43,988 nt of DNA from positions 1-43,988 of the IMG/VR virus record IMGVR_UViG_3300010151_006521; one strand, given 5' to 3'. The notes beneath the pieces are model-generated. The model saw nothing but the letters and a program-made list of their open reading frames with translations. It made no database searches and was not told the origin of the DNA. Origin of the DNA: a virus. Shown here in pieces: positions 4,706-27,598 of the stretch (position 1 is the first letter of the stretch; each line of letters starts with the position of its first letter). A program made the translations under genes and the position numbers.

Positions 4706-4744
4706 AAAAAGGGCCCCGGTTGCAAGAATTGCAACGCGGGGCCC
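4706..4744 (-). terminator. Intrinsic terminator after the major capsid gene
   Basis: On the minus strand an 8-bp GC stem (4711-4718 with 4737-4744) continues after a one-base bulge into a 7-bp stem of GTTGCAA/TTGCAAC with a 3-base loop, then five T (4706-4710). It lies 36 bp after the capsid stop codon, as expected for a terminator that caps the abundant capsid transcript and lowers expression of the connector and tail genes behind it. The upper stem is built from two copies of the over-represented hexamer TTGCAA. Confidence 0.9.
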
Positions 4745-4779
4745 CTTGAGTTTATTTCCTTACCCTAAGGGATCAGGGG

Positions 4780-6312: not shown

Positions 6313-6335
6313 TGTCTTAGGTGGTTGTTAATTGG

Positions 6336-6353
6336 GTTGGTTTGAGGACCAAC
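6336..6353 (-). promoter_or_regulatory. Hairpin in capsid gene leader
   Basis: A 6-bp stem GTTGGT/ACCAAC with a 6-base loop lies in the 58-bp gap between scaffold and capsid genes. The rest of the leader up to the ATG at 6312 is A/C-rich with no GGAGG-like site. Possible roles are transcript processing or stability, or keeping the start accessible; this is inference. Confidence 0.4.
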
Positions 6354-6370
6354 GGCTCACCCCTTCAATA

Positions 6371-7639: not shown

Positions 7640-7692
7640 TGTGCTGGGATTTTGGTCTTTATTTGATACTTTGCAAGACTTAAATTGCAATC
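7640..7692. promoter_or_regulatory. Divergent intergenic region, scaffold / plus-strand island
   Basis: This 53-bp gap separates the minus-strand scaffold gene from the plus-strand gene at 7693 and must carry start signals for the latter. It is AT-rich compared with its surroundings and contains two TTGCAA hexamers 14 bp apart. On the plus strand TTGATA (5 of 6 to a -35 box) is visible, but no good -10 fits with enough room before the start codon. No confident promoter can be named. Confidence 0.35.
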
Positions 7693-9392: not shown

Positions 9393-9676
9393 GAGAGCTT
9401 GGCAGCCACTACGGCTCGCATGATCTTCCCTGATCTAGCCTCACTGTAGGCCCGGTATCCCAAGACCTCGTCGCAAGCCTTTATGACTCCCCTGTTTAGC
9501 TGGGTGGTCAACTGGTCACTATCCGGGTCGTTGACAATGGACTGCGCCTCGTCCCTCCTCTTTTGGATCATGGGAATAAAGTGGTCACTCCACCCTTCCT
9601 CCCTGCACATCCTCTCTACTCTCTCACCTACCTTCTGGGCGCGGTCATACTCTTGCTTCTCTTTGTCGATGCTCAT
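9389..9676 (-). CDS. Small helical protein behind portal, unknown
   Basis: A 95-residue charged, mostly helical protein (EKQEYDRAQKVGERVERMC; MIQKRRDEAQSIV). Its ATG overlaps the portal stop by 4 bp (ATGA), so it is translationally coupled to the portal. Small helical proteins after portal genes are sometimes head-assembly cofactors, but no family is evident. The 3' end meets the convergent plus-strand gene with a 3-base overlap and no terminator between them. Confidence 0.6.
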   Translation of the reverse strand: MSIDKEKQEYDRAQKVGERVERMCREEGWSDHFIPMIQKRRDEAQSIVNDPDSDQLTTQLNRGVIKACDEVLGYRAYSEARSGKIMRAVVAAKLS

Positions 9677-11925
9677 ACTACAGGAGGCTGCTGTCCGGGC
9701 ATATTATCCTGCGTGTTTATGGCCTGAGGATTTCCGCTCCCTCCGGAGGGAGTGCCTTGTGGGGGAATCTGGAAGCCGGGCTGGATAATCTCGTCCACAT
9801 GGGAAACCTGCATTGCCTTTAGCATCTGACGGTAAAGCTGGGCGGTGCGAACCTGTAATTCTGGGGGGAGAGAATAAAACTCAATAACCTTGGCGCTGGC
9901 CTGCTGCGCCTGAACAAGCTCCTGCTCATTCTTGTATCTGGTCATCTCTAGGCGCACATCCATGTCCACCTGCTTATCGACGTTCTCTGGGCCGAATTGC
10001 AGCATTTGCGCCGCCTCGTCCTCTGTATACATGAATGCCTCCCGCACATCGAGATAGGCAAGGGTGTATACGCAGAACTGCTTGAGGAGGTCCTCTAGGC
10101 CATCTTGCAACTGGCTGAGGTAGATGGAGAACATCTCCTGACCGGATCTCTCGATATTCTTGACCCCGGTAGCCAGTTTGGCCGTATCCATCCCGAGCAT
10201 GGCGGCATCGTTCACATGAGAAACTCCGCTCATGTTGATTGCAACCTGCATGAAGAACTCGATCTCCTTGTAGATTTCCCGGCCCTTAACGTCATAGAGC
10301 GGGATGACCTTGAGGATGGTCTCTGGGTCGATGTTACCCTTGGGGGTGTATGTCCTGCCGCCATTAAGCTCCAAGTGGGGGTTCTCTTCTCCCTCCAGAG
10401 TAAGCTCAGGGTTCCAGAAGATGACATTCCCAGAGCGGGACTGAGAGTGGTTCCACCTGTTGACCAAGAGGTCCACTACTTCTTGCAAGGGCTGGAACAC
10501 CTCCATGGTGCCTATCCCGTGCCAGCGCCCCTCTACCCGGTTTACCCGGGTGACATTAAACGGCCTGCGGCCATCAGGGGTCCGGTTTGCAACATAGTCG
10601 TAGAACAAGGGCCTCCGGTTCTTCTTGTCCAGCATGATGACGATGTCCTCCTGAACGCCGTCTTCGTCCGCATCAAAATGGATGTAGACCTCAGCAATCT
10701 CCACGACTGGCTCTCCCTCTAGCCCCGTGTCCGTTTTCCTGTTGTCGTCTTCGGAGTTGACCTTGTCGTGCCCCGAGCTTTCCCCGAGTTCTGGCCTCTC
10801 CTTAGTCCCGAATGCTTTCCTGTTGTCGTCAATGCGAACAAGCTCTTGCAACGACTCGAAAATCTTGGTGGCCGTCTCCCTAGTGGTCTCACCCTCATTA
10901 TCTAGGGCCGAAACATAAAGGGACGCGATTTCGATTGCTGGCTTGTCATACAGGTGGACGCATATGTCGGCCTCTCCAAGGCTTGGCGCGTCGAGGGGGG
11001 CTAAGAAGTCCTTGTAGTAAATAGGCTTGGACTCTGCCCCCCGATACTGGACCTTCTGCCTTGGGACAATCTGCACCTCAAACCTGAGCATTTCCGGGCT
11101 TTCAAGCCCCTCTGGAAGCTGTGTTTCGCCATCCCTAACCAGAATCCAAATGGGATCGCTTACCACCCCGGGGTCCTGCTCGCTCTGGGTCGCCACTTGG
11201 GCCCACTGGTCATCCTCATAGATGTAGTCGGCATCTGCTGCCACAAAGGGAACACCCGCCGAGTCCACCGCGATAGAGGCCTCTTTGTTGAATTGGGTCC
11301 ACTCTTGGCGGTAAATGGTTTTGGAGACCGTCTCCCCCCTGATGATAGCTCCCTCGACGGCGGCCATAATAGCCCCCTTGAGGTCGGCCTCCTTGGCCTT
11401 ATACTTGCAATACTTGTCTGTTACGTCCGCAGGCTCTTCATCGCTTTTGCTCACCGGGTAGGCCCCGAACCATGGCTCGGTCCCAAGGAAGTAGCTAACG
11501 GCGCGGGAAATCTGTTGTTGGGCAATCCTCCTAGACAAGGGAACCGTGAGGTTGGATTCAGCGAAAATCCCCCCGACCAAGTATGCCCTCCAGTCGATCT
11601 GGTTATGGAAGGTCATCTCGTAAAGCTGCCTTTTGCCCATAAAGGACCCAGCGGCCTGCTTTACCGTGTCGTCGTGCCCCCTGCCATACCAGCTCGCTTG
11701 CGACGTTGACCCGCGACCAAGCTCATTCTCAAGGGTAGAGATCCTAGCCATGGCGTGAGTGATCAGGCGGTCCTCCTGCCGCGCAGTAAGTTGCAACGGG
11801 CTGCTAAAGACAACCTTGGGCTTCTCCTTTTCCCCGGCGTTCAGGGGTGGCTTAGGGGCGGTAATCACCTTCTCGGCAACCGCCTGAACTTGGCTTATGG
11901 CGCCAGATTGTCCTTCTTCACTCAT
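9673..11925 (-). CDS. Portal protein
   Basis: A 750-residue protein with the features of large podoviral portals: an early helical/wing part (IDWRAYLVGGIFAESNLTVP), a central beta-rich clip/wing segment, and the diagnostic late region from about residue 550 (AINMSGVSHVNDAAMLGMD, ATGVKNIERSGQEMFSIYLS) leading into the long stem/crown helices. The C-terminal ~60 residues are Gln/Gly/Pro-rich and partly encoded by the CCCTCCGGAGGG palindrome (TPSGGSG). Twelve copies would form the vertex ring for DNA packaging and tail attachment. It is coupled by ATGA overlaps to the giant protein upstream and the small protein downstream, which suggests that portal and giant protein are made together and may assemble together. 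Confidence 0.85.
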   Translation of the reverse strand: MSEEGQSGAISQVQAVAEKVITAPKPPLNAGEKEKPKVVFSSPLQLTARQEDRLITHAMARISTLENELGRGSTSQASWYGRGHDDTVKQAAGSFMGKRQLYEMTFHNQIDWRAYLVGGIFAESNLTVPLSRRIAQQQISRAVSYFLGTEPWFGAYPVSKSDEEPADVTDKYCKYKAKEADLKGAIMAAVEGAIIRGETVSKTIYRQEWTQFNKEASIAVDSAGVPFVAADADYIYEDDQWAQVATQSEQDPGVVSDPIWILVRDGETQLPEGLESPEMLRFEVQIVPRQKVQYRGAESKPIYYKDFLAPLDAPSLGEADICVHLYDKPAIEIASLYVSALDNEGETTRETATKIFESLQELVRIDDNRKAFGTKERPELGESSGHDKVNSEDDNRKTDTGLEGEPVVEIAEVYIHFDADEDGVQEDIVIMLDKKNRRPLFYDYVANRTPDGRRPFNVTRVNRVEGRWHGIGTMEVFQPLQEVVDLLVNRWNHSQSRSGNVIFWNPELTLEGEENPHLELNGGRTYTPKGNIDPETILKVIPLYDVKGREIYKEIEFFMQVAINMSGVSHVNDAAMLGMDTAKLATGVKNIERSGQEMFSIYLSQLQDGLEDLLKQFCVYTLAYLDVREAFMYTEDEAAQMLQFGPENVDKQVDMDVRLEMTRYKNEQELVQAQQASAKVIEFYSLPPELQVRTAQLYRQMLKAMQVSHVDEIIQPGFQIPPQGTPSGGSGNPQAINTQDNMPGQQPPVV
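9737..9752. repeat. CCCTCCGGAGGG palindrome, portal copy
   Basis: A perfect 16-bp palindrome CTCCCTCCGGAGGGAG lies near the 3' end of the portal gene and encodes part of a TPSGGSG linker. Confidence 0.85.
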
Positions 11926-14900
11926 CGCTTATCCTTGAGTTTTTTGTTGAATGTCTTTCTTGCCTCTAATTGGAAGTCGATGTTGCCGTAGGCGATTCCT
12001 CTTGCCGTATCGCTGGCTCTCCTCCGGGCCTTCGAGATGTCGCCAGCAGTTCTAACGGAAATTTGCTCCTCTTGCCAGACCCTTTGATAGGCTCGTTGGA
12101 AGATGTCATATTGCAACGAAGTCATCTTGTGCTTCTGCTTGAGCCCGGTCGCCTCGTCAGTGTAGACGTATGCATTGCTGACACGGGAAGGCATTATAAG
12201 GTCCTCCCTGTAGGGCTCCAACTTCCTCCCTCTGTTGATCATTTGGTCGTAATACTTGGGAGTGTAGGGCTGCTGCCTTGTAATCCACGAACCAAATCCC
12301 CGGGGCCTCTTGAGAAGGTCTCCATATGCGTCCCTTTGTGATCCGGGGGCAAATTTGTTTCTAGGCAGGTCTATGCCAAGCACCTTGCTGTCCATGCTGG
12401 GATACATCTCGTAGAGAAGAAGTTTCCAGACGGGGTTGGCGTCTCCAAGAGAAAGCCTAGCATCGTATGTAAGGTTCCCATCCCTAATAGGCTGCCTGAA
12501 CACGTTGGGGATTAGGAATGTCGCAAATTGCCTCGCGGCCCATTTCTCAGCAGAGATTTTGCCACTAGCTATGCCGAAGGCGTCATTCATCCCCCTCAGC
12601 GAAGTTTTGTCTGTTAGCTGGCCAAAAAGAGTGTCCGTGAATAGTTCGTATCCGGCTTCAGCTATGTTGCGCTCTTTTCTGCCAAGCCTCTTAAATGTCT
12701 TCACCCAGTCTACTGTGGTCCCTAGGGTTATGGCCAACGGATCAATTCGCCCATAGTCGAAGGTGACTCCCTCCTCCCCCTCCGGAGTAACCATCTCCCC
12801 TATCGGGATAGCGCCAAACAGCAATGTCGCATCTCTTTTTATCCGAATCTTAAACGGACCCAGCCCGGCCCTGATGGCCGCCTCCCTCTCTGCTGGAGCG
12901 CCCTTTGTGAACTTGGGCATGGAGCCAGTAATCAGAATTGGCTTCTCCTCGTCATCTTCATCCCCTTCAAACATCGCCAAGATTGCTGCTGCCAAAACGG
13001 TCGAAAGAAGCTGCTGGGATAATTTCCTGATGGATTCTGCCGCCTTGGGGTCTGGGTTTCCTCGGTTTTTGGCTAGATACTGACTGAGCTTAAATGAGTG
13101 GTAGGCTACTGAGAAGGGGTTGGGGATTCTCGCATACCCCTCTCGGACAAGGTTGGCCAACACCCTTGCAAATGGAATTATTGTAATGCGGGTCATCCCG
13201 AGAGCGATTCGCAAGGAGTCCATCTTCGCAACCTCGGTAAGTCTTATCAGGCCGGATTCTGTGACCCTTGAAACTTCCTTGGATGCCCTCAGGCCCTTCT
13301 CTGCGTTTTTGACTTTCTGATCAATTGCGTTAATTGCATAAGCAACCGCATCTCCCACAGACGCCTGTGCCCCTGTAAGATCAGATGGGAGGTCCTTGGT
13401 GAAGACAGAAACATTGGCTTCTTCTGCCGCGAGCGTCCAACTAGAGGAGCCGGGGACGGTCATCTCCCTGTGGATGAACTGCTCTAGTTCAGCGCCCTCA
13501 AGGCCTTTTCCAGTGCCCACCCTATAGGCGATTCCGCCCACATGGGAGCCTGCGACAACGAACCTCATAAACTCGTCCACTCCCATGTTGAACCTAAGGA
13601 TGTTTCTCCCGAAACCGCCAAAGCTGACCTTCCTTTTAGCGCCCTTTTCCCCCAAGGCTCTTCTGGTCAGGGCTGGTCTTTCCCACTGTTTCCCAAACAT
13701 TTTTTCTAGGCCCTGATCGACATAGTCGAGCAAGTGGCCCATTTGGTAGCCACGCACCTCTTCGTGGGTTTCCCCCCTGTATTCCCCTCCCTCAACGCCG
13801 CCTTTTACGAAGGAGTTGAAATAAGCTGTCTCGGTGTCGTAAGCGAGGAATCCTTGGTATATCGCCATGCCAAGATAGGTCTTCATCCCCCTTGCGATAT
13901 ACTTGAACTCTCCCATCTTGGCCGCCTCCGGGTGCTTTGCCAACTTGTTCAAAAGAGACTCTGCCGCCTGCTCCCCAATCATCCTGTATCCCGCGAAGGG
14001 GACGGACATAAGGTTCACAAGAACAGTTTTGGCCGAGAACACGTTCCCATACCAAGACCCGAACGTCCGCGTCACATAGTCAATGTCAATGTCATCAAGG
14101 GATCTGAAGGCGGCCTGAACGTGTATTGGGTTGTTTACATTAAATCCTTTTTGGGCGAGGGCCTTCACGGACGCCTTAAATGATCGGTCTAGGACCTTAT
14201 TGACATCCTGATCGGTTCCGGGCTCCGCCTTTCCGGACAGGGGGGTGCCGCTTGCAAAGGACCCCATGTTGTTCTCGTTATATCCGCGCTTAACCAGCTC
14301 TCTCACCTTGGGCTCCAGAAGACCTCTGAACTTCTCCATGGCCCTTCTTTGCCCGGCCTTAGAGACGCCAGTCGCCGCCTCAATGGCCGCTGCATCAGCC
14401 CCCTCTCTGGCCATTTGCACGACCTTCCGGAATTTGGGGGTTAGCTCTCCAAGGGCCGCCTGATCGGTGGTCGTCCCAATTGCGACCCCGTCATTGGAGG
14501 AGTTGAATATTTCCTCTACAGACATGCCGTCACGACTAAGGACCCGCTTGGATTGCTCCAGCCTGTTGCGTTGCAACTTTTTCAGGTCCTCATCAAAGGC
14601 CGCTTTGCTGGACTTGGGGACACTATACCCCGCGTCCTTCTTTCCCCCGTGCTTCTTTCTTAGGGCCTGCATCTGACCCGGGGGCACCGTATTCATCGCC
14701 ATGCCAAGTGCATACGCCGCTCTTTGTGCCGGGGTCTGGAACGGGTCCCTCATCGAGGTCATCGTTCTTGCAATTTCGCCTCGCAGCTCTTGCAAGGCGT
14801 GGGCAAAGGCCATCACCTTGTCAATTTCAGCTTGGTTTCCAGATGTCAGTGCTTTCTGGAAGTCATCTGCCAGAACCTGCATCGAGGCTATTTGGAACTC

Positions 14901-17900
14901 AGGAGTTCCGGGCTGCCCCAGCTTTTCCGCCGACTCAAAGACCCTCCTCCTGATCTCGTCGTCGCCCTGTGACTTTCTCTCTGCGGAGGCCCCAGTCTTC
15001 CACTGAGGGAAGTTCTGCGCGATGAATGTCTCTTCGTAGATTTCCTGAGAAACGTCATATGCGTTCCGGACCTCTGGGGTTTCCCCCACCTTGGCCCTAG
15101 AGGGGTCGCCCTTGACGACTTTCTCCCCAGCAGCATTCCTAGAGTCTCTTTTCTTGAACAACTTGAGGCGCTCCCGAAGGGTCTTGCCTCTTTTGTCCAT
15201 TCTCCCCTTGGCCCTTTCCGCGCCCTCCTCGGAGTCTTTTGGCCCCCTCTGGAGGGTGGGTCCTACAGTCCCCCCTCCCGTTTCCTGATCGAGGTCATCT
15301 TTCCCCTTATCCGAGACATCTGGCTTTCTAGCGCGATCATCTCCCTTTCTGCTTCTTTGCGGCCTGTCAATTCTAAGGCCGTATCCTTTAGCACCTTGCC
15401 CAGTAATAAATGCCTCCGCCTCTTCTTCATCAAAGTCTTGTTCAAACCTTTCATAGTAGTCGTGTAGTGTGTCTGTTTTCTCTTTTGATTTCCTTCTCAG
15501 GACATCAATATCGTTGGTTCCCAAAATGTCTGCCACCGTTGCAAACCCTTGCAAGGAGGTTGCAAGTCCACCAGCAGAAAACGTGAGCCCCCTTGCAAGC
15601 TCCTGCCCCTCGCTGTTGATGTCTTGATGCAGCCCTTCGTGCAAGGCGACCCCCCCCACCTCGTCCAGAAACAACTGGTATAGGCCTATGTGATAGTTTT
15701 CCTCCACGCCTCCAGCTACCTCAATGATCTCCTCCATGCTATGGGTGTCTCGTACATGCCACAATGTTGACAGCGGATCATGGTAAATGACGGTAGGGGG
15801 GGCATTCATCGGCTGGTCAGCCTTGGTCTGCTCGTCTGTAATATACGATATAGGAAGGTGAAGTCCGTATGCGTTGGTCCCAACTGCAAACCCGGCAAAT
15901 CCCGCCCTGCCAAATTGCTCGTTACTTTGGTATCTCGTCGCGAGATACTTCAGGACCCTTCCTTGGACCTGATAGTAATCCTCTGCAATATCGGCAACCA
16001 GTGGGTCAGTCGCGAACTCTTCAACAAGTTCGGAGTCAAGAGTCCCCGACAAATCTAGAAAATGAAACTCGCCGGGAACGGCTGCGTCTCTGGGATCTTG
16101 CCCCCACTCCTTGACGGCGGCGTACCGAGCAAACTTTTCCGCCTCCACGCCATACTGCTCTTCATTGCGCCACGGCCTGCGAATAAGAGCAGTGTCCCCT
16201 CTGCGGTCTATCCACTTCTGACGCCTTTGGATGTAAGCCATTTGGGACAGCTTGCCCATGAATAGCTCGATTTCGTCTTTGACCTCTTTCGAGACAGAGT
16301 TTCTGTCGAGGCTAAACGGGTAACCTGCCTCCCCGGCGTCAACTTTCGATCTTATATTGATCGCAATGCCACTAACTGGGACAAGGGCCTCCTGATCCAC
16401 GCCAACAGCAAAATTTTCTTCAAATTGATAGATTGTTCTATTGAGTATTTTGCCCGTAACCGCGTTGCTTTGATGCTTCTTGTCCCCGTCCTTCGCGAGA
16501 ATTTCTATCTCAAACAGGTCCGTTTCAATGTTCCCGTCCTCAATCACGACCCAGTCTTCGTCAGGATAACTCGCTTCGTGCGCCGCGTATCCACTGGGCT
16601 TCCATCTCGCTATGCCAGCGAAATCACTAATCGATGGCCCCTTTAGCGCCCCGCTCCAATCTGTCTCAATTTGTTTGATGATTGGGCCGCCGGGACCGGG
16701 GAAGTTCTCCTGAATACGTTCTTTATGTGCCTCGATTCCAGCAATGACGTATTTCCTTGTTATCTCTAGTGCCGCCTCTGGCGAGTAGTCATCAAACCAA
16801 CTCCTCGGGGAAAGGCCGGGGTCTATGGGGGTGCTCGCGGGAGAAGTCGCCCCTTGTTCTACATACCCGGCGTCCTCGTATTCCCTCCCGACCCTGAGTG
16901 TGGGAGTTAGCTTTGCCGCGCCCTCTACAAAGGCAGTGGCGTTAGTCCAACCCCTCCCCCACTTTTCGTTAGCCTTGTCATTCGCATTCGGGAATCCCAA
17001 AACATATGCCGTCCCCGTGTCGCCACCCTCAGGGGCATGGCTCACGGTCAACTTCATGCCCGGAAGGATTTCTGTTTCGTTCCCGGGCTCCAGCATATTT
17101 TCTGGAGTTTCTATTCTCCCACGGGTTAAGTAATCCTCGTATGCGCCGGGGCCTAGTTCCAGTTGCGTCAGAATCCTCTCGCCTTTTTCGTTTTCGTTGA
17201 TCGTGGACACCCTGACATTGTTGGGGCCCATCAGGAAAACGAGCTTTGCAATCCCAAACCCGCCGCCTTCTCCAACGCCCTTGCCCGAAACGAAGGCAGG
17301 GAGGAATTTCGTCCATACAAGTTCAGGAGACATTCCCACCCCATTGTCGGACATCGCGAATAGATTCCCTGCATAGGCGTCTCCATTCTTGTCCACCAAT
17401 TGCACCTTGCCACTGTCTTGCCACGCGAACCCTCCCTGATTGACCAAAATCGTGGGGTGGTAGGCCTCAAACCCTTTGGGGAAATCTCCAAAGTCAGCAC
17501 TTGCCTTCCAGTTTCTGACCATGTTTTCCACAAGGACCTCGTCTTGAATACCCGCCTTCAGAGCATCTGCGCGAACAAACTCTTCTATCCTATCGTGCAA
17601 CTTGGCCTCTTCTGCGGCCTTCTTCTTCATGACGGCATCCACAGAGTTCTGGAAAAGCTCTTTGCCCAAAGTCCCAGTGGGGTCGGTGCCATACATATTG
17701 GCGCCAACCAGCTTCAACATTCTCTTTATGTCGAAGGTGGAGGACTCCTTCAGGTCCGCTGGCTTGTCTGCGTCAGCGTCATCAATTCCTCGCTGCAATG
17801 CCGGGGCATTGATGCGCGGCACGATCTTCCTGAAGTCAGCCTCCAGTTGCTTGTCTAGTTTTCGGGACTTCAGGAATTCCCCCAGATGGGTGGGCCACGT

Positions 17901-20900
17901 TAATTGGTCATGAAAGCGCCCCCAGTGACGCCCGATCATGAGATCAAATGCAACGGCCTTCCCGTTCTCTATTGTGAAATTATTCGACCCTGCGTCACCA
18001 ATGCTCAGATCCTCTGAGGGATCGTAAAAATTATATGCGTCAATAGGGATCATCCCTATATCGATCATATGCAATACCAGTTTCCCCTGCTTGAGGACCT
18101 TGCCCTTGCGCTCTAGGCTTTCATAGTCGGGAGCTACGGGCCCCAACACATCCGAGTCTTCTTGCGAGTATGGCTGCCTGACATGTGCATGGAGCTTTCC
18201 GTTCTTAACTATGAACCCAAGAAGCTCGTATGTCGCTTCGGGGAAATAGTGGTTGTGCCATATAAGCCTATTGAAATACTCCAAGAAGGAATCGTCGCCA
18301 TGGAATACCTTCTCTACATACTTCCCCTTGTGGATAACCCAGTTCTCGTATCCACCCATCCCCACCGCTGCATGGTCGTGGAAAAATCGAGCCGAATCGT
18401 TGATGAGGTCATTATCCTTTGCCCATCGCTTCAGGAGCTTCCCTTCGACCTTTTTGACCCCCGGGTAGGCATACATTCTGGTTTTGGGGTCAACCCCCGC
18501 CGCCCTCAGGACCCCATTAAACGCTTCGTCTGTTTCGTAAAGTCCTCTAAGGTGGGCGTAGGCTTCTTCGCCCGACTTGCCGATAGTTCCGAGGCTCTTT
18601 TCAAGGACTTCTTGTGACGGTCCCGCCTCCGTTTGGCGAATTCCCGTGATGGTGAGTTCCTTCTCGCGCTGAAGGGTGGGGGTGCTTTGTCCTCGTCCTC
18701 GTCCTCGGGGCCCCTTAGTTCTTGGAGCGCGACCCGTGGCAGGGACCAGTCTAGTCCCATCTTTTTGAGGCTTCTCTGCACCCTTTTTAGTTTCTGGATC
18801 TCGCTTTCCGACAAACCATTCAGGATAGAGGGATCGACTTCTCCCGGTGATGATTTTTCTTGCTCTGGCATTGCTGTTATTCTGCCACGTTTTGGTGGCC
18901 TCAGCTAGATGATTCGGTTTTTTTTCTCCGCTGGGATGGATAAGGCGGATTCCCTCCCAAGCGATTGACTGCATTTGCCGTGGCTGGATACCCCTGCGGC
19001 GAGCGGCCTCTCTGTATGCATCAGCATACAAATGATACAGCCCCGAAACTCCCTCAACTGCCGAGCCTGCCGCTCCCTTGCCGCCGAAGTTGTGTTCCAC
19101 CGCAAGTGCTGTTATCCCCCACGGCATCAAGTGCGCTGCCGCCACCGCGTGAGTGTCCATGGTGACATCTCCCATCGGGCTATTAGGCGCGACTATGTTG
19201 TTAAAGAAACTCCGGACCTTGTGTTCGGCTCCGAGAATCCTGTTAAGGTTTTCAAGGCTCCCATTCTTTAGAATTGAAATTGCATCTGCAAGTTGGGCGG
19301 CAGACCCCCAGCCATGCGTCGAGGGGGTTCCTTCTTCCCCGGATCGCAATTGAGCTTGTGTGGGGCTGTTTCTTTGGACATGCAAAATATCCCCCTCCGG
19401 GGTCATCACATCGTATTCGGCCCCCCAGTGGTGATCAGCCAGCAATCTCAGGGCCCACGCTTGAGCTTCCGCGTCTATTTTCCCTAGCTGGTTGATGGTG
19501 TAACCATAAAGGCCCTCCATGATCACACGCCTATCATCCCTCTTCATCTCATCAAGCCTCCTGTTATAGGCTTGCCGCAGTGATGTTTGCCTCGGCGTCT
19601 CGCCATCACGCACTTTCTTCCTTGCCGACGGTGCCGCCTGCGCCTTGGCGATCATTCTCTCTATGGCTTCCCCATGAACCTTGGGGTCTATCGCCTCGTT
19701 CCGGTTATTCGCCCAAATATCAATAACCTTCTTGGCCTGTGCCGCGTTCTTGAACCAGTTATTCTTCGGGGAAAGAGATGCAATGACGCCAGCAACCTGA
19801 ACCTTGGTGTATCCGTATCTCTTTGCTAGGCGATTTGCAAGTTTGCTGGCCCCGTCATACCAATGCGATGCCCTTTCTCTTACTTCCGTTGGCAGGGCGT
19901 CATGAACGGCCAAGATATTTTCGACCATCCACTCAATTGCCTTTTCTCTCTTTCTGTGCGGATTCTTCTCTGACCGAATGCTTTGCGGGAGATGATCGTA
20001 ATCAAACGACTTCATGTGCGCCGTCAGGAGTTCCTCGCTCACCGACGCTATGCCAATGTTACTGCTGGCGTCCCGGCGCTTTCTGGAGGTCGTCGCCGTT
20101 TTCCTTGCAGTCCCAACGCGGAACCTGTCATTGCTTGCATTGGGCTTGGATGCGGCTGATTTCTGGAGGGAGAGACCGGATGTCAGCCTGCCTCTGATGG
20201 ACTCCCACTCTGCCCCAAGATCAATTCCTGCGTAGAACTTGCCATCATGCTCAATAACCTTGGCGGAATTTCCATATATGGGCTTGTAGAGGTTTTCTAC
20301 CAGCTTCTCGGCGGCGGCGCGTTTCTTGAATCCGGTTTGAGGCCTGCCATTAGGAAGCGCGAGGACCAAGTCCCTTTCGTCTACCGCAATGGCTCCATTG
20401 AGAAGATTTCTGTGTAACCGGGATACTAGCTCGGCATCAGCCCCCAAGGAATTCCCAACGATTTCGTTGTCTGCAAATAGCTCGGCAAAGGCTACTCTCG
20501 CCTCGTCAGTGAGCTTATACCCTCCCTCCTTGGTTACGTCCTTATAGATGGCGTAAATGGCTGGGGCTAAGGTTGAAAAAGCTCCCTGTAGACCCGGTTC
20601 CGGAGACTTGCCTTCCTGCAAGAAGGCCTCAAGCCCTTCTGCCATTGTCTCGATAGGCCTTGAGGGATTGACCTCCTCTGCCCATGCGTTCATTTTGGCG
20701 GCATTTTGGGGCCCGATAGCCGCATCTAGAAGACTTCCTCTGGACGCGGGGTCCTGAATCTTCTGCAACACATGAACGAACTCATGCAGAAGAGTGGACG
20801 CGTCGCCTTTTTCAGAAAGGCCAATGTAAACCCTAGAGCCAGCGGGGTCTGCTTCGGCTATCCCCTTTACTTCAAGTTCGCTCTTGGCCCTTGTCTTCCG

Positions 20901-23900
20901 AACATATTCAGCATCTGCTTTTTTGTATTCGGTTTTTTGATCCTCTGTCGCCTTCTCTATCTTCTGGTCTACGTCTACCAGCTCCTTTTTGAGTTTGGCC
21001 ACTTTGGGGTCAACTCCCCCCTCCCAGACAAGGGCAAGGCCCTCCGTTACAATTGCCGATATCTCTTCAGTTATCTGTTCTTTACGAGATACAAGCTGTT
21101 GCAATTTTTGTATCCCCTTTTCAGAAGGCCCTTTTCCGACCAAAGCCAAGAATCTGTCTTTGGCTCTTCGGAGTGCTGGGATGACTGCGGGGTTTCCATC
21201 TGCCACATCGGCGGTAATGGAGGTAACCATCCTACTGGCTGCCAAAGCCCTACGAGCGCGTTCCGTGAAGGTCGCGTTTTCCAGAACGGAGCTAAGGCTT
21301 TCATTTATATTTGTAACTTTTCCCAAGTAAGACTTAACCGCAGATTCAAGGGCGCCCGATCTTGCTTCTTCCCCGGCTTTAGAGGCTTTCACCCACTCAT
21401 CCACAAGGGAGGTAAACTCTCCGCCCACTTTTACTACGTTTACAAAGGCGTAGATAGTCTCTTTTGAGAGATCCGTCTTTGTTGACACTGCCGCGACCAT
21501 CCCCTTGATGGCTTTCAGGACCATGTCCAGCTCGTCAACTGACAGGCGTCCCCTTACGACCTGCGAAGCGTACGCGGTTCTAGTTGCTTCATTAACCGTG
21601 TCCTCATACTTGTGCGCGTTTTTCTCTCTCGCCTCTGCGCGAGTTGCAAAGGTTTGAGTTCGTCCCCCGGGGAGGGTTACTTCGTATTGGCCTCCCCGTA
21701 GCCTTCTAATATTTGGAGGAAGAACCACATCTTTGCGGTCTGTGATGCGGCTTTCTGGAACGGCCACGCCGAGATCGGCAAGAACTCTATCGCTTGTGTT
21801 CTCGGCAATGAGGGCCATCGCCATGCGCTCATAAAATTTCAACTCCTTCTCCAGCGTGGGGTTGCCAGCAATGATAGTTCTGATCCGGTCTAGGAACCTC
21901 CTGAGGTATTTGAGGAACAGGCCAAGGGGGCCATTTCTTACCGCTCCTCTGGCCGCCTTGCTTCTCCCCCCCTGCTTGATGGCCTGCCGCATCGTGGCCA
22001 CTAATAGTGGGTCCGTGATTAGGTTTTCTACAAAGTAGCGAAGCACATCGGCATCAGAGGCGTCCTCGCCTTTCAGCGTCGCGCTCCTAGCCCTTTTGGC
22101 CATTAACTCTTGGGCCTTAGGCGGGAAGAAGTCAAAAAGGGCTTTGGCCTCTGCGTCAGAGAGAACCCCTTTGGTGCCCAACTTGGCAATGATTTCAATT
22201 TCTATCCTTCTCTGCTTCTGGTCAGACATTCCGTCCACCTTGGAGCTGAGAATTACATCTCCATCTTCCGTTATGACGTAATTTTTCCCTTTGGGAACGG
22301 GAGACTCCTCGGTCTCGGTTATAACCTTCCTAACTAGGCCAAACCCTTGCAACGCGGAGGCTACGTCCCTGCTCTCCTTTGGAGTCTTGGCGGCTGGCTT
22401 TTTCTTGGCTGGAGCGGTTTGGGTTGTTGGGGCGTCTCTGCCAATCTCCTCCACTGAGGACAAAGTCTCAGGGGCATTTATTTTGGCCGCCGCAGCATCC
22501 CCGGCCTCTGACTTGGTTTCCGCCTCTACTACAAACGTCTTGGTCTTCCCTCTGCCAACATTGATTGTGGCCCTCCACTTCTTCTTCCCTCCGGAGGGAG
22601 CGGCCTCTTCACCCGCGACAGGTTTTTCCCTAACGACAAATTCCCCGTCTTTTACTTCGACAACCTCGTAGAGGTCCTTGTCGATCTTGGGAGTCTTCCC
22701 ACCGGAGAGCGTTCTTAGCCGAGTGTCTGCTTTTTGCCTAGTGTCATACGGCTCGCCTTTCGCATTTTTTATGACCTGTCTCCCTCCCTCAACGGAGACG
22801 CCCTTGACCTTGCTGGGGTCAGCAAGGCCCTCCCGCGCTTTCGGCGCTGCCTTTTCAGGCTTGGCCGCTTCCTCAGGCTTGGCCGCTTCCTCAGGCTTGG
22901 CCGCTTCCTCGGGCTTGGCTTCTTTGGGGGCAGGTTCGGCTGCTTCCTCCTTAGGTTCGGCTACCTTGGGTGCAGGTTCGGCTGCTTTGGGCGCAGGGGC
23001 CTCCCTGACTTGCTTGAGTCTGGCTTCCTCATTTAGAGATATTAAAAATTTGGCCGCATCGGGATCTAGCTGCCTAACCGTCCTTATCCCGTCCTCTGTA
23101 ATTACAAGCTGGCCGTCTACCTCTCTAATAGCAGGATTCCCCTGCTCGTTTGTCGCTTTGTTTACCGCCCTGAACTCGGTTGAGGTTAGCTCGCTATCGT
23201 CATTAACCTTGCCGCTTGCAATTTTAAGCAAGCCCCGAGCCTGATGCACTTTGTCGATTTGGGCTTGCGCTTCCTCGACAAGGTTTTCGTTCCCTAGCTC
23301 AGAATAGTAGTTCCTGCTTCCAGCGGCGGATTCCTCTATGTTTTTGAGATTCTTGTGAGCCTCGATTGCAACTTGCAAGTTTTTGGCCGCAACGCCACCA
23401 TCATTAGAGCCTTTCCCGGGGTTGAAGTTTATTAGCTCCAGCCCGGCCTCAACCTCCCCTTGGGTATATTCTGTTTTCCCAAAGACATCGCCAAGTGCCG
23501 CACGGGCAGTCTTGGGGTCAGAGAAGTTTTCTGCCGTCATCCCGGTTTGCCCGGCAGACATGGTCGCCCCCATGAATCCTCCAAGGACCAAACCAGCAAC
23601 GCCAGCGTATGCTGATCGACCAAGGACCTCGGAAAACGAAGCGTCATCAAAGGATAGACTAGAGATGAGCTGATCGGAGAATTCTTCTGCGCCCTCGTAG
23701 AGGGAAGCGCCTGCGACGGACTTGACTGCTGATATGAACTTTTCTTTTCTTTTTGTCCCCTCGGCTCCAATGGCTCTCCAGAAATCTCTAACGGTCCACT
23801 GGTTTACTACTTTTGGTGCGAAAACCTTTTGAATGCCCGTAGTCCCAAAAGCCCTGACCACGCTCGCGGTAATCACCCCTGTAACCATCGCCCTGCCCCG

Positions 23901-26870
23901 CACCGCTGGGCTGGAAGCAAGTTCATCTTCTTCCTCTTCGGTTAGAATCCTCCCAAGCTTCTCTTGGAGCTTTGACTTGGACTCTTCATAGTATAGTCCC
24001 CATGATAGCCCCGCAGACTGGAACCCGGCTCCGGCAGCCGACCCGCGAATGCCCCATTTTGCAGCAGCTTTATCTAGGTGTTTAACTTTCTCCTCGGCGC
24101 TCTTTGCCTTGCTTAGGGCTCCTTTAGTGACACTGCGATTGATGGACCTTTCGATCCCCTTGGTCATTGCCTTTCTTCCCACTGTTGCCCCCGCTCCGCC
24201 GGGGACAAGCGAGAACAAGAGGGACGGTCCTTCCTCAAGCAGGATGTCCGAGGCCTTGGAAAGGAGCGCAAAAGGGCCCCATGTCATTTTCGTCCCCGCG
24301 AAATCTCTGCCTTCTCTCTGCTCGGCCAAATTGTCAGATGCCCATATTGTCGCATCTTTTGCTCCGGGGATTGTAAGGACTGCGCCTATTCCTGTAAGAG
24401 TTTGAACGAACTTCCCGCCCCCCATCATAAGGCTTCTAAAGGGCCTTGATGCCGTTGCAACGAATCCGTCTCTCTTGCCTTCATACTTGGCCACATAGGC
24501 GGCCATCTGGTCATTGAAGCTGGGGATCTTCTCCCGGGCCTTTGCTTGCATGTCACGGAGGCTTTCCATGCCCTCCTCAAGGTTTCGGGCGCTCTCCCTG
24601 AGATACGAAGCGTCTTCCCCTGACTTCTCCTTTGTGGAAATCTCATCCCTCAGCTCTGCCAACTTCTCGCCTCTTTCTTGCAAGCCAGACTCGTAGCTTT
24701 TCCAGTCATAATAAAATTTCTTCCGGAACTCGGCTGGGGTAGGAGTCCCGCCGGGGACGGCGTATGCGGCTGAAGCGCCGTCATATATGCTGCTTGCATA
24801 TGTAGTTAAAAGCCTTTGATAGGTTTGCTCGGAAAGATAGTGGTCCCTAATAACTTGCGGGGCCTTGGAGGCGTTGATAGCCGCCTTGTATCCATCCGCA
24901 TCGAACAGGTTTGTGTCCGGATGGAACAGCATGGTTCCATCGGACCTAAGCCTTATAGCCTCTTGGTCTGCCTTCTTTGGCCACGGCTTGTGGGTCTTCT
25001 CGACGTCCTCAAGGGCCTGAAACCTCTCCTGCTCCGAATACCCCTTTTCGTCGAACCACTCGTTGATCCTTTTGTGCTGCCCGGGCTGGTCGCCGTATTG
25101 CTTCCCACGCTTCGCTGACTTTACAGCAATGGCACCGCGCCGCATTAGGGCATCGAGCATACCACCAGCCGTATATGCTAAATTCTCGTAGAAAGGGCCA
25201 GAAGTAACGTCCGTGCCTGTTTCGTGCCGGAAGGACAATGGCAGCCCCATTTCGGCTTCGCCTTTGTTTAACCGGACACCAAAGCCATGCTTGCCAATTG
25301 CCTTTAGGGACCCCGGGCTGGAGCCAGCCATCTCATACAGCTCGGTTGAAAGCTCCGCAAAATTCTCGGAATTTTTCGCAAAGGCCTGCTGAACTTGATC
25401 AGATATGTTGCGCTCCAGCTCTAATACCCTTTGCAGGATATACTCCTTTTTATTTTCGGGAGTATTAGTCAGCTTGCTAATGCGGTCATCTCCCGGGACC
25501 CCCTCGTCTGCTGTATGCCCCGCAGGGCCTTGCAGGAAATATTCAATGTCATCAGGAATCGCCTTATAGCGGCCCCTGATGAGCTTCTTCATCTCTTCGT
25601 AAGATTCGTGGATCTCTTTGTGGTAAGAGGGAGCGATGGTCTCCCCCCTGCCTTGGGTTCCCAATAATCCGGTTACCTCTTTTTGGCTCCTCGATATCCC
25701 AGATATGGTAGACTCAATGGCCTCTTTTTGTTTCTTCTCCCACTCCTCGTGACGGGCCTTGGTGAAGCCCCGCATGTCCTCAATGGCATCACCGATAATC
25801 GGCCTAAGGAGATCCAAGGACTCGCTCCTTGCCTTTACCTCTTTGACTCCTTTGTCGTATTCAAACCTCTCCCTCAGGTAGTCCTTCGTGGCCTCTGCCC
25901 ACTCTCCCCTGAGGGTAACGCGCCCTCTCTTAATCTGATCCGGTGTCGCCCCGGATTGCAACCACTCCATGAACCCCTCTTCAAGTTCTTGGACGTTTTT
26001 GTGATATGCACCAGCGGCCTTCTTCTCGTCCTCAGAGACGGATTTGGCTCGCTCATTATTAATGCCTACCTCTCGGTTATAGGCGTCAATAAACGCGCTT
26101 GTTCCCTTGGGGTCCTCCTCAGCTTCTGGGGCCTCCCATGTTCTTCGCCCGTAGGTGCCGGGTCGGTCTCTTGCAAGATCCTCGGGGAAGCCCTCTGAGA
26201 TTCTCCCCTGCCTCTTGATCTGTTGGTCGATTTCGGCTATTTCCGAAACAGACTTATCATCAGCATCTAGAGCTGCCCTTTGCGCGGCAATAGACTGCTG
26301 TTTTTGCTCCAGAAAACTTTGCGCCGCTTCATCGCCGTTTTCAGCTCGTTCACGAAGAGACTCAAGGTAGTTTAGGTCTTTATCTAAATCCTCTTCAGCC
26401 GATCTTCTTTTGGCCGGGGACATCGGGGCCCTAGCCGGGTCTTTCCTGATGGCATCTATCTGGTCACCCAGACCCGAAATCTTGGCCTTGGCGTTTGCCC
26501 TGTCGGACTTTTCCCTTTGGAGGTCTTTGAGGGTCTGCCTGTGATCAGCGACCTGCTCGTCAGAAAGGGATAGCCTCAATCTGCCATCTTCGTCCTCTAG
26601 AAGATAATCAGAAAGCCCCTCATCCGAGGCTCTGGTTCTGGTGATCTTGTTCTGCCTAGCAACCCTATCGTTCTGGATTCTTTCAACTTCGGCATCCCTA
26701 GCCCGTTGCTCTCTCTCTTTCTTCTCCTTCCTCAGTTCTTGCTCTCTATTTAGAGCGTCGAGTCTCCTCTGGTGCCTAGCTACACCAGAGCGAAGTTCGG
26801 ATAAGCCATCAGAGTCCCCATAAGGATTCTGGATAGGCGCATCCTTATAAGGGTCCTCTATATCAGCCAT
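11922..26870 (-). CDS. Giant polyvalent (injected) protein, 4,982 residues
   Basis: One uninterrupted 14.9-kb gene, a third of the window. Visible parts in order: charged coiled coils (1-550); Gly/Ala-rich hydrophobic segments (about 815-910, 1085-1110); a Pro/Ala/Lys/Glu linker (about 1285-1345); zinc metalloprotease motif HEFVH (2029-2033); a domain with SPKNNW (2367-2372) and MDTHAV (Asp2572); a protein-kinase-like domain of the polyvalent type (candidate Lys2854, Asp2959-Asn2963, Asp2976); a GHKL ATPase (N-box E3071..N3075..D3078, D3175-N-G-V-G, glycine lid about 3196-3206); a second metalloprotease motif HEGLH (3744-3748); then a long C-terminal virion-protein-like part with a hydrophobic helix near 4617-4630. 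[PS]-x-L-Q-[RK] motifs sit at Q2236, Q2734, Q3026 and Q3874, between domains. Such proteins are usually packaged and injected. It overlaps the portal by ATGA. Domain identity is firm for zincins, kinase-like and GHKL; targets are unknown. Confidence 0.9.
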   Translation of the reverse strand: MADIEDPYKDAPIQNPYGDSDGLSELRSGVARHQRRLDALNREQELRKEKKEREQRARDAEVERIQNDRVARQNKITRTRASDEGLSDYLLEDEDGRLRLSLSDEQVADHRQTLKDLQREKSDRANAKAKISGLGDQIDAIRKDPARAPMSPAKRRSAEEDLDKDLNYLESLRERAENGDEAAQSFLEQKQQSIAAQRAALDADDKSVSEIAEIDQQIKRQGRISEGFPEDLARDRPGTYGRRTWEAPEAEEDPKGTSAFIDAYNREVGINNERAKSVSEDEKKAAGAYHKNVQELEEGFMEWLQSGATPDQIKRGRVTLRGEWAEATKDYLRERFEYDKGVKEVKARSESLDLLRPIIGDAIEDMRGFTKARHEEWEKKQKEAIESTISGISRSQKEVTGLLGTQGRGETIAPSYHKEIHESYEEMKKLIRGRYKAIPDDIEYFLQGPAGHTADEGVPGDDRISKLTNTPENKKEYILQRVLELERNISDQVQQAFAKNSENFAELSTELYEMAGSSPGSLKAIGKHGFGVRLNKGEAEMGLPLSFRHETGTDVTSGPFYENLAYTAGGMLDALMRRGAIAVKSAKRGKQYGDQPGQHKRINEWFDEKGYSEQERFQALEDVEKTHKPWPKKADQEAIRLRSDGTMLFHPDTNLFDADGYKAAINASKAPQVIRDHYLSEQTYQRLLTTYASSIYDGASAAYAVPGGTPTPAEFRKKFYYDWKSYESGLQERGEKLAELRDEISTKEKSGEDASYLRESARNLEEGMESLRDMQAKAREKIPSFNDQMAAYVAKYEGKRDGFVATASRPFRSLMMGGGKFVQTLTGIGAVLTIPGAKDATIWASDNLAEQREGRDFAGTKMTWGPFALLSKASDILLEEGPSLLFSLVPGGAGATVGRKAMTKGIERSINRSVTKGALSKAKSAEEKVKHLDKAAAKWGIRGSAAGAGFQSAGLSWGLYYEESKSKLQEKLGRILTEEEEDELASSPAVRGRAMVTGVITASVVRAFGTTGIQKVFAPKVVNQWTVRDFWRAIGAEGTKRKEKFISAVKSVAGASLYEGAEEFSDQLISSLSFDDASFSEVLGRSAYAGVAGLVLGGFMGATMSAGQTGMTAENFSDPKTARAALGDVFGKTEYTQGEVEAGLELINFNPGKGSNDGGVAAKNLQVAIEAHKNLKNIEESAAGSRNYYSELGNENLVEEAQAQIDKVHQARGLLKIASGKVNDDSELTSTEFRAVNKATNEQGNPAIREVDGQLVITEDGIRTVRQLDPDAAKFLISLNEEARLKQVREAPAPKAAEPAPKVAEPKEEAAEPAPKEAKPEEAAKPEEAAKPEEAAKPEKAAPKAREGLADPSKVKGVSVEGGRQVIKNAKGEPYDTRQKADTRLRTLSGGKTPKIDKDLYEVVEVKDGEFVVREKPVAGEEAAPSGGKKKWRATINVGRGKTKTFVVEAETKSEAGDAAAAKINAPETLSSVEEIGRDAPTTQTAPAKKKPAAKTPKESRDVASALQGFGLVRKVITETEESPVPKGKNYVITEDGDVILSSKVDGMSDQKQRRIEIEIIAKLGTKGVLSDAEAKALFDFFPPKAQELMAKRARSATLKGEDASDADVLRYFVENLITDPLLVATMRQAIKQGGRSKAARGAVRNGPLGLFLKYLRRFLDRIRTIIAGNPTLEKELKFYERMAMALIAENTSDRVLADLGVAVPESRITDRKDVVLPPNIRRLRGGQYEVTLPGGRTQTFATRAEAREKNAHKYEDTVNEATRTAYASQVVRGRLSVDELDMVLKAIKGMVAAVSTKTDLSKETIYAFVNVVKVGGEFTSLVDEWVKASKAGEEARSGALESAVKSYLGKVTNINESLSSVLENATFTERARRALAASRMVTSITADVADGNPAVIPALRRAKDRFLALVGKGPSEKGIQKLQQLVSRKEQITEEISAIVTEGLALVWEGGVDPKVAKLKKELVDVDQKIEKATEDQKTEYKKADAEYVRKTRAKSELEVKGIAEADPAGSRVYIGLSEKGDASTLLHEFVHVLQKIQDPASRGSLLDAAIGPQNAAKMNAWAEEVNPSRPIETMAEGLEAFLQEGKSPEPGLQGAFSTLAPAIYAIYKDVTKEGGYKLTDEARVAFAELFADNEIVGNSLGADAELVSRLHRNLLNGAIAVDERDLVLALPNGRPQTGFKKRAAAEKLVENLYKPIYGNSAKVIEHDGKFYAGIDLGAEWESIRGRLTSGLSLQKSAASKPNASNDRFRVGTARKTATTSRKRRDASSNIGIASVSEELLTAHMKSFDYDHLPQSIRSEKNPHRKREKAIEWMVENILAVHDALPTEVRERASHWYDGASKLANRLAKRYGYTKVQVAGVIASLSPKNNWFKNAAQAKKVIDIWANNRNEAIDPKVHGEAIERMIAKAQAAPSARKKVRDGETPRQTSLRQAYNRRLDEMKRDDRRVIMEGLYGYTINQLGKIDAEAQAWALRLLADHHWGAEYDVMTPEGDILHVQRNSPTQAQLRSGEEGTPSTHGWGSAAQLADAISILKNGSLENLNRILGAEHKVRSFFNNIVAPNSPMGDVTMDTHAVAAAHLMPWGITALAVEHNFGGKGAAGSAVEGVSGLYHLYADAYREAARRRGIQPRQMQSIAWEGIRLIHPSGEKKPNHLAEATKTWQNNSNARARKIITGRSRSLYPEWFVGKRDPETKKGAEKPQKDGTRLVPATGRAPRTKGPRGRGRGQSTPTLQREKELTITGIRQTEAGPSQEVLEKSLGTIGKSGEEAYAHLRGLYETDEAFNGVLRAAGVDPKTRMYAYPGVKKVEGKLLKRWAKDNDLINDSARFFHDHAAVGMGGYENWVIHKGKYVEKVFHGDDSFLEYFNRLIWHNHYFPEATYELLGFIVKNGKLHAHVRQPYSQEDSDVLGPVAPDYESLERKGKVLKQGKLVLHMIDIGMIPIDAYNFYDPSEDLSIGDAGSNNFTIENGKAVAFDLMIGRHWGRFHDQLTWPTHLGEFLKSRKLDKQLEADFRKIVPRINAPALQRGIDDADADKPADLKESSTFDIKRMLKLVGANMYGTDPTGTLGKELFQNSVDAVMKKKAAEEAKLHDRIEEFVRADALKAGIQDEVLVENMVRNWKASADFGDFPKGFEAYHPTILVNQGGFAWQDSGKVQLVDKNGDAYAGNLFAMSDNGVGMSPELVWTKFLPAFVSGKGVGEGGGFGIAKLVFLMGPNNVRVSTINENEKGERILTQLELGPGAYEDYLTRGRIETPENMLEPGNETEILPGMKLTVSHAPEGGDTGTAYVLGFPNANDKANEKWGRGWTNATAFVEGAAKLTPTLRVGREYEDAGYVEQGATSPASTPIDPGLSPRSWFDDYSPEAALEITRKYVIAGIEAHKERIQENFPGPGGPIIKQIETDWSGALKGPSISDFAGIARWKPSGYAAHEASYPDEDWVVIEDGNIETDLFEIEILAKDGDKKHQSNAVTGKILNRTIYQFEENFAVGVDQEALVPVSGIAINIRSKVDAGEAGYPFSLDRNSVSKEVKDEIELFMGKLSQMAYIQRRQKWIDRRGDTALIRRPWRNEEQYGVEAEKFARYAAVKEWGQDPRDAAVPGEFHFLDLSGTLDSELVEEFATDPLVADIAEDYYQVQGRVLKYLATRYQSNEQFGRAGFAGFAVGTNAYGLHLPISYITDEQTKADQPMNAPPTVIYHDPLSTLWHVRDTHSMEEIIEVAGGVEENYHIGLYQLFLDEVGGVALHEGLHQDINSEGQELARGLTFSAGGLATSLQGFATVADILGTNDIDVLRRKSKEKTDTLHDYYERFEQDFDEEEAEAFITGQGAKGYGLRIDRPQRSRKGDDRARKPDVSDKGKDDLDQETGGGTVGPTLQRGPKDSEEGAERAKGRMDKRGKTLRERLKLFKKRDSRNAAGEKVVKGDPSRAKVGETPEVRNAYDVSQEIYEETFIAQNFPQWKTGASAERKSQGDDEIRRRVFESAEKLGQPGTPEFQIASMQVLADDFQKALTSGNQAEIDKVMAFAHALQELRGEIARTMTSMRDPFQTPAQRAAYALGMAMNTVPPGQMQALRKKHGGKKDAGYSVPKSSKAAFDEDLKKLQRNRLEQSKRVLSRDGMSVEEIFNSSNDGVAIGTTTDQAALGELTPKFRKVVQMAREGADAAAIEAATGVSKAGQRRAMEKFRGLLEPKVRELVKRGYNENNMGSFASGTPLSGKAEPGTDQDVNKVLDRSFKASVKALAQKGFNVNNPIHVQAAFRSLDDIDIDYVTRTFGSWYGNVFSAKTVLVNLMSVPFAGYRMIGEQAAESLLNKLAKHPEAAKMGEFKYIARGMKTYLGMAIYQGFLAYDTETAYFNSFVKGGVEGGEYRGETHEEVRGYQMGHLLDYVDQGLEKMFGKQWERPALTRRALGEKGAKRKVSFGGFGRNILRFNMGVDEFMRFVVAGSHVGGIAYRVGTGKGLEGAELEQFIHREMTVPGSSSWTLAAEEANVSVFTKDLPSDLTGAQASVGDAVAYAINAIDQKVKNAEKGLRASKEVSRVTESGLIRLTEVAKMDSLRIALGMTRITIIPFARVLANLVREGYARIPNPFSVAYHSFKLSQYLAKNRGNPDPKAAESIRKLSQQLLSTVLAAAILAMFEGDEDDEEKPILITGSMPKFTKGAPAEREAAIRAGLGPFKIRIKRDATLLFGAIPIGEMVTPEGEEGVTFDYGRIDPLAITLGTTVDWVKTFKRLGRKERNIAEAGYELFTDTLFGQLTDKTSLRGMNDAFGIASGKISAEKWAARQFATFLIPNVFRQPIRDGNLTYDARLSLGDANPVWKLLLYEMYPSMDSKVLGIDLPRNKFAPGSQRDAYGDLLKRPRGFGSWITRQQPYTPKYYDQMINRGRKLEPYREDLIMPSRVSNAYVYTDEATGLKQKHKMTSLQYDIFQRAYQRVWQEEQISVRTAGDISKARRRASDTARGIAYGNIDFQLEARKTFNKKLKDKR
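22586..22599. repeat. CCCTCCGGAGGG palindrome, giant-gene copy
   Basis: A perfect 14-bp palindrome TCCCTCCGGAGGGA inside the giant gene, coding Pro-Ser-Gly-Gly in frame in a low-complexity linker near residue 1427. Confidence 0.85.
22858..22911 (-). repeat. 18-bp tandem repeat in giant gene
   Basis: Three tandem copies of GGCTTGGCCGCTTCCTCA (plus-strand reading; the last copy has one change), coding KPEEAA units in a Pro/Ala/Lys/Glu linker. A further partial unit follows. Copy number is likely variable by slippage, and the linker separates the N-terminal membrane-like part from the protease region. Confidence 0.85.
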
Positions 26871-26887: not shown

Positions 26888-27598
26888 TCACCGGGAGAGC
26901 CCTATCTCCCTGCCGCCTGCTGCGTTTATGCGGCTGCCGCCTGCTGCGTTTATGCGGCGTCTCGGCTTCCCCGTCGTCCCCGTTGCCCCGCTTCCTCCGG
27001 TCGCTCCCTTGTTTCCGGCAACCGTTGTGCCATCTCCATCTTTGCCTTCACCATACTCAGGGACTTCAGTTTCGGGCGTCTTCGGCTTCTCCGTTGGATT
27101 CCTGTTCCGGAAGTCATAATCGAAATCTTTCGCAAGTTTGGCCTCGTCGGTGAGGGACTGAATATTTCGCTCCCGCTTCTTGGCGTAATCGCCTTCGTTC
27201 ATGGGCCGGAACTGATCCCTTTGCTTGTCGGACATCTTCTGGAATTGCCTGTGGGCCTGAATATCGACCTCCCCCTGTGTCATGCCCTTGTGCTTGCCTC
27301 CCGTGTATCTATATGCCCCTTTTGTCTTGCTGGACATGGTCCTTCCTCCCCTGTTCCCGCGATGCAGGGCCAAAAATCTCTCAAACCCAGTATTCCCAGC
27401 TCCCGCATTCTCAACGGGGGCGACACTGGCGGCCTTTCCTGTTGGGTCTGTTTCAGTAGCGCCGGGGAGATCGCGGGACCTCTTCCGAATATTGGACTTG
27501 CTAAACATTTCGCCATATCCTCCCATTTGATTCCAAGAGGTTGGCCGCTGGGGGATGGCCATGGGTGTTTTTGGGCGCGTTACAGGTGTTGGGGGCAT
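26888..27598 (-). CDS. Basic Gly/Lys/Arg-rich protein upstream of giant gene, unknown
   Basis: A 236-residue strongly basic, low-complexity protein (many KK, RR, NxGG), ending in a duplicated octapeptide (RRINAAGG, SRINAAGG). No transmembrane segment or catalytic motif is visible. It is the first gene of the minus-strand block, 17 bp before the giant gene, and so is probably co-transcribed with giant protein and portal. A DNA-binding or internal head protein co-packaged with the giant protein is a reasonable guess. Its ATG (27598) has no Shine-Dalgarno sequence. Confidence 0.6.
   Translation of the reverse strand: MPPTPVTRPKTPMAIPQRPTSWNQMGGYGEMFSKSNIRKRSRDLPGATETDPTGKAASVAPVENAGAGNTGFERFLALHRGNRGGRTMSSKTKGAYRYTGGKHKGMTQGEVDIQAHRQFQKMSDKQRDQFRPMNEGDYAKKRERNIQSLTDEAKLAKDFDYDFRNRNPTEKPKTPETEVPEYGEGKDGDGTTVAGNKGATGGSGATGTTGKPRRRINAAGGSRINAAGGREIGLSR
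26910..26957 (-). repeat. 24-bp tandem duplication
   Basis: Two identical 24-bp units (26910-26933 and 26934-26957, beginning CTGCCGCCTGCTGCG) encode the duplicated octapeptide at the C-terminus of the basic protein. Perfect identity points to a recent duplication. Confidence 0.9.

Follow-up and report, generated by a model that had tools for sequence, protein, structure and literature searches.

The closest described systems are the polyvalent proteins (Iyer et al. 2017, PMC5512222), which carry many unrelated domains per chain, including zincins, Kinase-PolyVal and ART domains, and whose genes lie among virion genes. Ejected phage proteins are a second point of comparison. The virion RNA polymerase of N4 (gp50, 3,500 aa) is an ejected giant that lacks cysteine, contains an HExxH domain and has been proposed to unfold during ejection (PMC12633501). 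T7 gp15/gp16, P22 gp7/16/20 and SU10 gp20-24 are Cys-free products of virion operons; the SU10 proteins are present in virions and gone after genome release (PMC9509320), and no effector enzymes are recognised in the ejection proteins of T7, P22 and SU10 except cell-wall hydrolases. Bbp10 of phage BPP-1 (2,052 aa, one cysteine) has a published zincin, residues 700-1000 being filed with the CLCA-type zincins (PMC3650047). Finally, a Bergerat plus transducer fold is found in T4 RIIA, Hsp90 and topo VI-B; an overview of jumbo phages names GHKL only for topoisomerase and RIIA (PMC7824862), and the words GHKL, Hsp90, gyrase, histidine kinase and HATPase are absent from the text of PMC5512222.

The window analysed here, a stretch of 43,988 bases from an IMG/VR virus record, contains an ORF at 11922-26870 (minus strand, as are all features of its product given below) for a giant polyvalent-type protein of 4,982 aa (549.9 kDa) without a single cysteine. 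The giant is a polyvalent protein by class: at least two disparate domains occur in one chain (Kinase-PolyVal, DUF7178, GHKL and zincin 1), and its gene lies among phage virion genes; its relatives also carry ART domains. Compared with the polyvalent proteins of PMC5512222, it adds a GHKL-transducer-zincin payload, and a scaffold and a payload can be told apart across five phage lineages. It resembles N4 gp50 in its size, its HExxH motifs and its lack of cysteine but differs from it in carrying another payload, with no profile match to an RNA polymerase domain when the whole chain was searched with Pfam and ten pieces of it (covering the chain outside aa 1300-1500 and 1720-1980) with Pfam and PHROGs. 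Bbp10 shares a homologous zincin 1, but it is less than half as long and gives no match to DUF7178, kinase or GHKL. The predicted Bergerat plus transducer fold is common to the giant and RIIA; whereas RIIA is a separate protein, the ATPase is here one part of a giant chain, with a zincin-like domain after it.

The ORF has an ATG start, a single terminal stop and no internal stop, and every motif listed in a preliminary description of this DNA lies in this one frame where it had been placed. The proposed coupling to the portal gene by a stop/start overlap (ATGA) is equally real: the neighbouring ORF (9673-11925, minus strand) encodes a 750-aa SU10-type portal protein (SU10_portal, 3.8e-13), and the surrounding virion block also holds a SU10-like adaptor (weak, 2.4e-4) and, nearby, a capsid gene. 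A portal search in IMG/VR gave 14 loci, including a contig (IMGVR_UViG_3300037634_005735) that is 100% identical over 31 kb, therefore not independent evidence, and was set aside and left out as confirmation. At the other portal loci a giant frame is open wherever sequence upstream of the portal is present, and four records from other metagenomes contain complete, intact giants upstream of the portal, of 5,706 (G003), 5,900 (G004), 4,334 (G005) and 4,917 aa (G006), measured stop to stop. Because intact giants occur in these divergent relatives, the ORF is not an assembly artefact, and the hidden frameshift about which the preliminary description had cautioned was not found. Its length of nearly 5,000 residues, first called exceptional, is not unique since relatives reach 5,900 aa; the family, known from few sequences on metagenome contigs, ranges from about 4,300 to 5,900 aa. 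All segments of the giant are under purifying selection, dN/dS against G003 or G004 being 0.09-0.29 in every segment with unsaturated synonymous sites. Immediately upstream of the giant, a 236-aa ORF (26888-27598, minus strand) also has no cysteine and is possibly a further ejection protein. Elsewhere in the window, two plus-strand ORFs (7693-9392; 229 and 336 aa) lie between the portal gene and a scaffold-like ORF, opposed to the virion operon, and relatives likewise have opposite-strand ORFs at this place; at 33060-36555 (plus strand) an AAA_5 ATPase precedes a VWA/CobT-like protein, forming a CobS/CobT- or MoxR-VWA-like pair.

Comparison of the five complete giants divides the chain into conserved ends and a variable middle. 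Residues 1-1500 (22371-26870), the zincin 1 region and residues 3860-4982 (11925-15293) can be aligned in all the relatives, even in G005, where identity drops to 22-33%. The N-terminal part includes a Gly-rich hydrophobic stretch within aa 870-1110 (23541-24263), and aa 939-1132 match residues 391-559 of an unrelated phage giant on another contig, L048 (hhalign 63%, E 7e-5); the C-terminal part gave no match to Bbp10, L048, the giant of Rhodobacteraceae phage LS06-2018-MD07 (LS06) or INPHARED phages. The middle changes from phage to phage: it holds DUF7178 and ART-PolyVal with no kinase or GHKL match in G006, no Pfam domain that could be found in G005, and an extra ART, placed after the kinase and before GHKL, in G004. 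Judged by sequence comparison, the conserved ends are thus a putative delivery scaffold and aa 2300-3860 (DUF7178, kinase, GHKL with zincin 2, ART) a swapped payload. In identity per 100 aa, G003 is the closer relative outside the middle (34-96%) and G004 in nearly all intervals from 2301 to 3900, so that the nearest relative changes from G003 to G004 and back, with switches at about aa 2300 and 3860. Synonymous sites follow the same course: pS to G003 is 0.29 in the C-terminus against 0.74 for GHKL; in DUF7178, G004 is the closer of the two (0.57). Since synonymous divergence tracks the protein pattern, relaxed constraint is not the only cause, and these patterns indicate recombination of payload blocks. 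Cassette-like variation has been suggested for Verrucomicrobium kinase loci (PMC5512222).

At the border of the N-terminal and zincin 1 modules lies a 51-nt DNA island (22564-22614) with the palindrome TCCCTCCGGAGGGA, identical to G004 at 50 of 51 positions and to G003 at 48, its N-terminal flank being similar at close to chance level; an exact 31-mer search found the island in this phage group and nowhere else. Five copies of the 12-bp palindrome CCCTCCGGAGGG lie in the window (4367, 9739, 22587, 27695 and 31747) against 0.006 copies expected; G003 and G004 have six each, several copies being at matching places, and G005 has none. As a guess, it could be an operator, a recombination site or a packaging site.

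For a protein composed like the giant, chance predicts about 0.10 HExxH motifs; it has two (P for at least two = 0.004, 0.4% of shuffles). The first, HEFVH (residues 2029-2033, codons 20772-20786), belongs to zincin 1 (aa 1980-2140, 20451-20933), which is present in all five full-length giants with HE(F)xH and a downstream E...AE..E invariant in 5/5 in the alignment. Profile comparison makes zincin 1 a homologue of the zincin published for Bbp10 (hhalign 93%, E 3e-7). Its homologues are large proteins that adjoin genes for an internal virion protein and a transglycosylase in BPP-1 and an internal virion protein gene in the phage LS06. Zincin 1 is part of the conserved scaffold in all relatives, even in one where no DUF7178, kinase or GHKL was detected, so that a role in self-processing or assembly is no less likely than an attack on the host.

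The payload of the window's giant begins with DUF7178 (PF23802; aa 2300-2700, 18771-19973; Pfam 1.8e-26), predicted to be all-helical, followed by Kinase-PolyVal (PF18762; aa 2806-2980, 17931-18455; Pfam 6e-13, 49.5 bits against a Pfam cut-off of 27), in which K2854, Q2899, D2959, N2964 and D2976 are invariant in three phages. The kinase model shows N-lobe and catalytic-loop elements only, at low confidence there, and neither kinase nor DUF7178 gave a PDB fold match (model mean pLDDT 58). An HhH-GPD DNA glycosylase had been considered for DUF7178 from its motifs LSPQKDW, HKVRxFY and TIDTHA and from the annotation of gp63 of phage S-CRES3 (N-glycosylase/DNA lyase); since the model (pLDDT about 70-92 in most of the domain) matched no PDB fold at E <= 1e-3, the idea was abandoned.

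The rest of the payload consists of a GHKL (Bergerat) ATPase (aa 3040-3330, 16881-17753), a transducer-like domain of the Hsp90-middle/topo VI-B type (aa 3430-3570, 16161-16583) and zincin-like domain 2 (aa 3600-3840, 15351-16073; HEGLH at residues 3744-3748, codons 15627-15641). Pfam HATPase_c scores below threshold on the giant (0.034), and it is conserved motifs and a fold search that identify the ATPase: the N-box KELFQNSVDAVMK from about residue 3070, the G1 box DNGVGM at 3175 and the G2 box VGEGGGFGIAK at 3199-3209 have residues that are invariant in four divergent sequences, and the predicted model (mean pLDDT 51) has 59 PDB matches at E <= 1e-3 (Foldseek), the best 50 of which are all GHKL proteins (topo VI-B at 2.3e-8, TRAP1/Hsp90, the gyrase B family). 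Most align over about 480-640 columns, so both the Bergerat and the transducer-like domain are covered; the TM-scores, about 0.2 by query length, support the fold class and not its details. Motifs and model together thus support a genuine GHKL ATPase of Bergerat fold. In zincin 2, the HExxH and a downstream Glu are invariant in both alignments used (A1 and A2), the HExxH being conserved in all copies including those of loci L012 and L048; among the best 50 of the 59 PDB matches of its model there is no zincin, and it is a zincin-type domain by motif conservation only. GHKL and zincin 2 are conserved together, in the same order and at about 30% identity, in L048, and the best viral structure match (BFVD A0A516L4L2_1, 794 columns) spans both, which is why we read GHKL, transducer and zincin as one module. 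The predicted fold also matches RIIA models (about 1e-4). In other collections, a scan of GTDB genomes for the unit gave three matches, all ordinary histidine kinases without HExxH, and tblastn gave no match in plasmids and INPHARED phages; as the collection scans used short exact peptide patterns, which miss distant copies, rarity of the unit is a weak claim. The L048 giant itself (1708-13773, at least 4,022 aa) has three HExxH motifs and ART-like sequence in addition to the unit, and L048 and G005 share a 36%-identical stretch.

The domain reading of the preliminary description is thus altered in several respects. The polyvalent-type kinase-like domain and the GHKL ATPase hold, the kinase with K2854, D2959 and D2976 at the positions named and the ATPase with a transducer domain added; DUF7178 and the exchangeability of the middle had been missed. 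Two metalloproteases had been proposed: both zincin motifs are there and zincin 1 has its homology to Bbp10, but neither region gave a zincin fold match (for zincin 1 in a fold search of a weak model, mean pLDDT 58), nor did Pfam find a zincin in the giant. Zincin 2 is part of the GHKL-transducer-zincin unit rather than an independent domain. The combination, held to be exceptional, is probably not unique, as A0A516L4L2_1 already matches across GHKL and zincin 2. With mean pLDDT of 51 and 58, the models of the giant's structure are weak, and PDB sequence-profile searches with six regions gave nothing convincing, the sole match below 1e-3 being a coiled-coil chance match.

The five complete giants are entirely free of cysteine: their 25,839 residues contain none, where 22-61 per giant would be expected from the remaining ORFs on their contigs. 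The 3,120 residues of the LS06 giant likewise contain none, and the L048 giant has one. The same depletion marks proteins known to be ejected: T7 gp14-16, N4 gp50-52, P22 gp7/16/20 and SU10 gp20-24 have a single cysteine among their 10,820 residues, whereas 13,855 residues of other virion proteins from these four phages contain 80, a plain contrast even though its Fisher P of 5e-19 is too small, residues within one protein not being independent. Since some other virion proteins are also free of cysteine, the signature, though strong in long proteins, is not exclusive. Outside the giants, phage S-CRES3 encodes a stand-alone DUF7178 protein with 4 cysteines in 199 residues, and in shorter DUF7178 ORFs on other IMG/VR contigs their number is 0-6. 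Almost no cysteine is seen across the window's giant, G003-G006, loci L060, L061 and L063-L066 and the known ejected proteins. By analogy with the latter, the signature suggests, indirectly, that the whole chain may be ejected. We found no statement of a cysteine-exclusion rule for ejected proteins in the open-access literature searched. More tentatively, with doubt slightly the heavier, we propose that phage proteins threaded through tail and envelope are in general marked by cysteine exclusion, so that long Cys-free chains could be recognised as ejected from their sequence, and that the entire 550-kDa chain may be injected, an ATP-driven GHKL-zincin protease with it.

Three indirect lines agree on ejection: the position in the operon, the internal-virion-protein slot of the zincin 1 homologues, and the absence of cysteine. 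The synteny with SU10 is partial, because gp20-24 are placed after the tail genes there. We consider it probable that the giant is a large ejection protein of a short-tailed phage with an SU10-type portal, equipped with interchangeable effector domains. Alternatively, the giant could be a precursor, cut during assembly by zincin 1, zincin 2 or both, so that only some fragments enter the head. Two zincin-type motifs do flank the payload, and DdrB of P1 is cleaved to about 76 kDa prior to packaging (PMC5512222); yet every part of the chain is Cys-free, as expected if all parts are ejected, and N4 vRNAP, another protein with an HExxH domain, is packaged in one piece, making this course of events unlikely. 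A non-catalytic internal core protein, with decayed payload domains, that fills the head or builds a DNA channel would fit with the long scaffold regions being the best conserved part and with the ejection proteins of T7 and P22 mainly forming conduits. We doubt this strongly, given that the HExxH, K/D/D and N/G1/G2 residues are invariant in divergent copies that have these domains and that dN/dS in the payload domains is 0.11-0.29 where estimable. Least probable of all is a late or early intracellular protein that is not ejected, serves superinfection exclusion or host takeover and adjoins the portal by chance: GHKL proteins such as T4 RIIA, whose models the predicted fold matches, do work inside the infected cell, but the gene lies inside the virion operon and its product departs so far from the cysteine content expected.

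As a large ejection protein, the giant would play the role of T7 gp16 or of the N4 virion RNA polymerase. The N- and C-terminal scaffolds would serve packaging, tail threading and probably envelope anchoring, and the chain may unfold and thread as proposed for N4 vRNAP. Zincin 1 most likely cuts the chain so that the payload is freed, as proposed for the zincins of polyvalent proteins. The GHKL-transducer-zincin unit could be an ATP-gated clamp that feeds or regulates the protease and, together with the kinase, might be aimed at host proteins at entry. That the protein is packaged and injected to act on host targets had been suggested at the outset; synteny and the Cys-free signature favour ejection, but for zincin 1, which is borne on the scaffold, a role in self-processing or assembly has at least an equal claim.

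The giant could therefore be seen as an unusually readable case of an ejection protein used as a delivery vehicle, with fixed ends and a swapped payload in five lineages, and the GHKL-transducer-zincin unit as an addition to the domains of polyvalent-type giants. If the cysteine rule is general, for which unfolded passage through the oxidising periplasm is a plausible cause, it would provide a simple sequence test for which phage proteins enter the cell.
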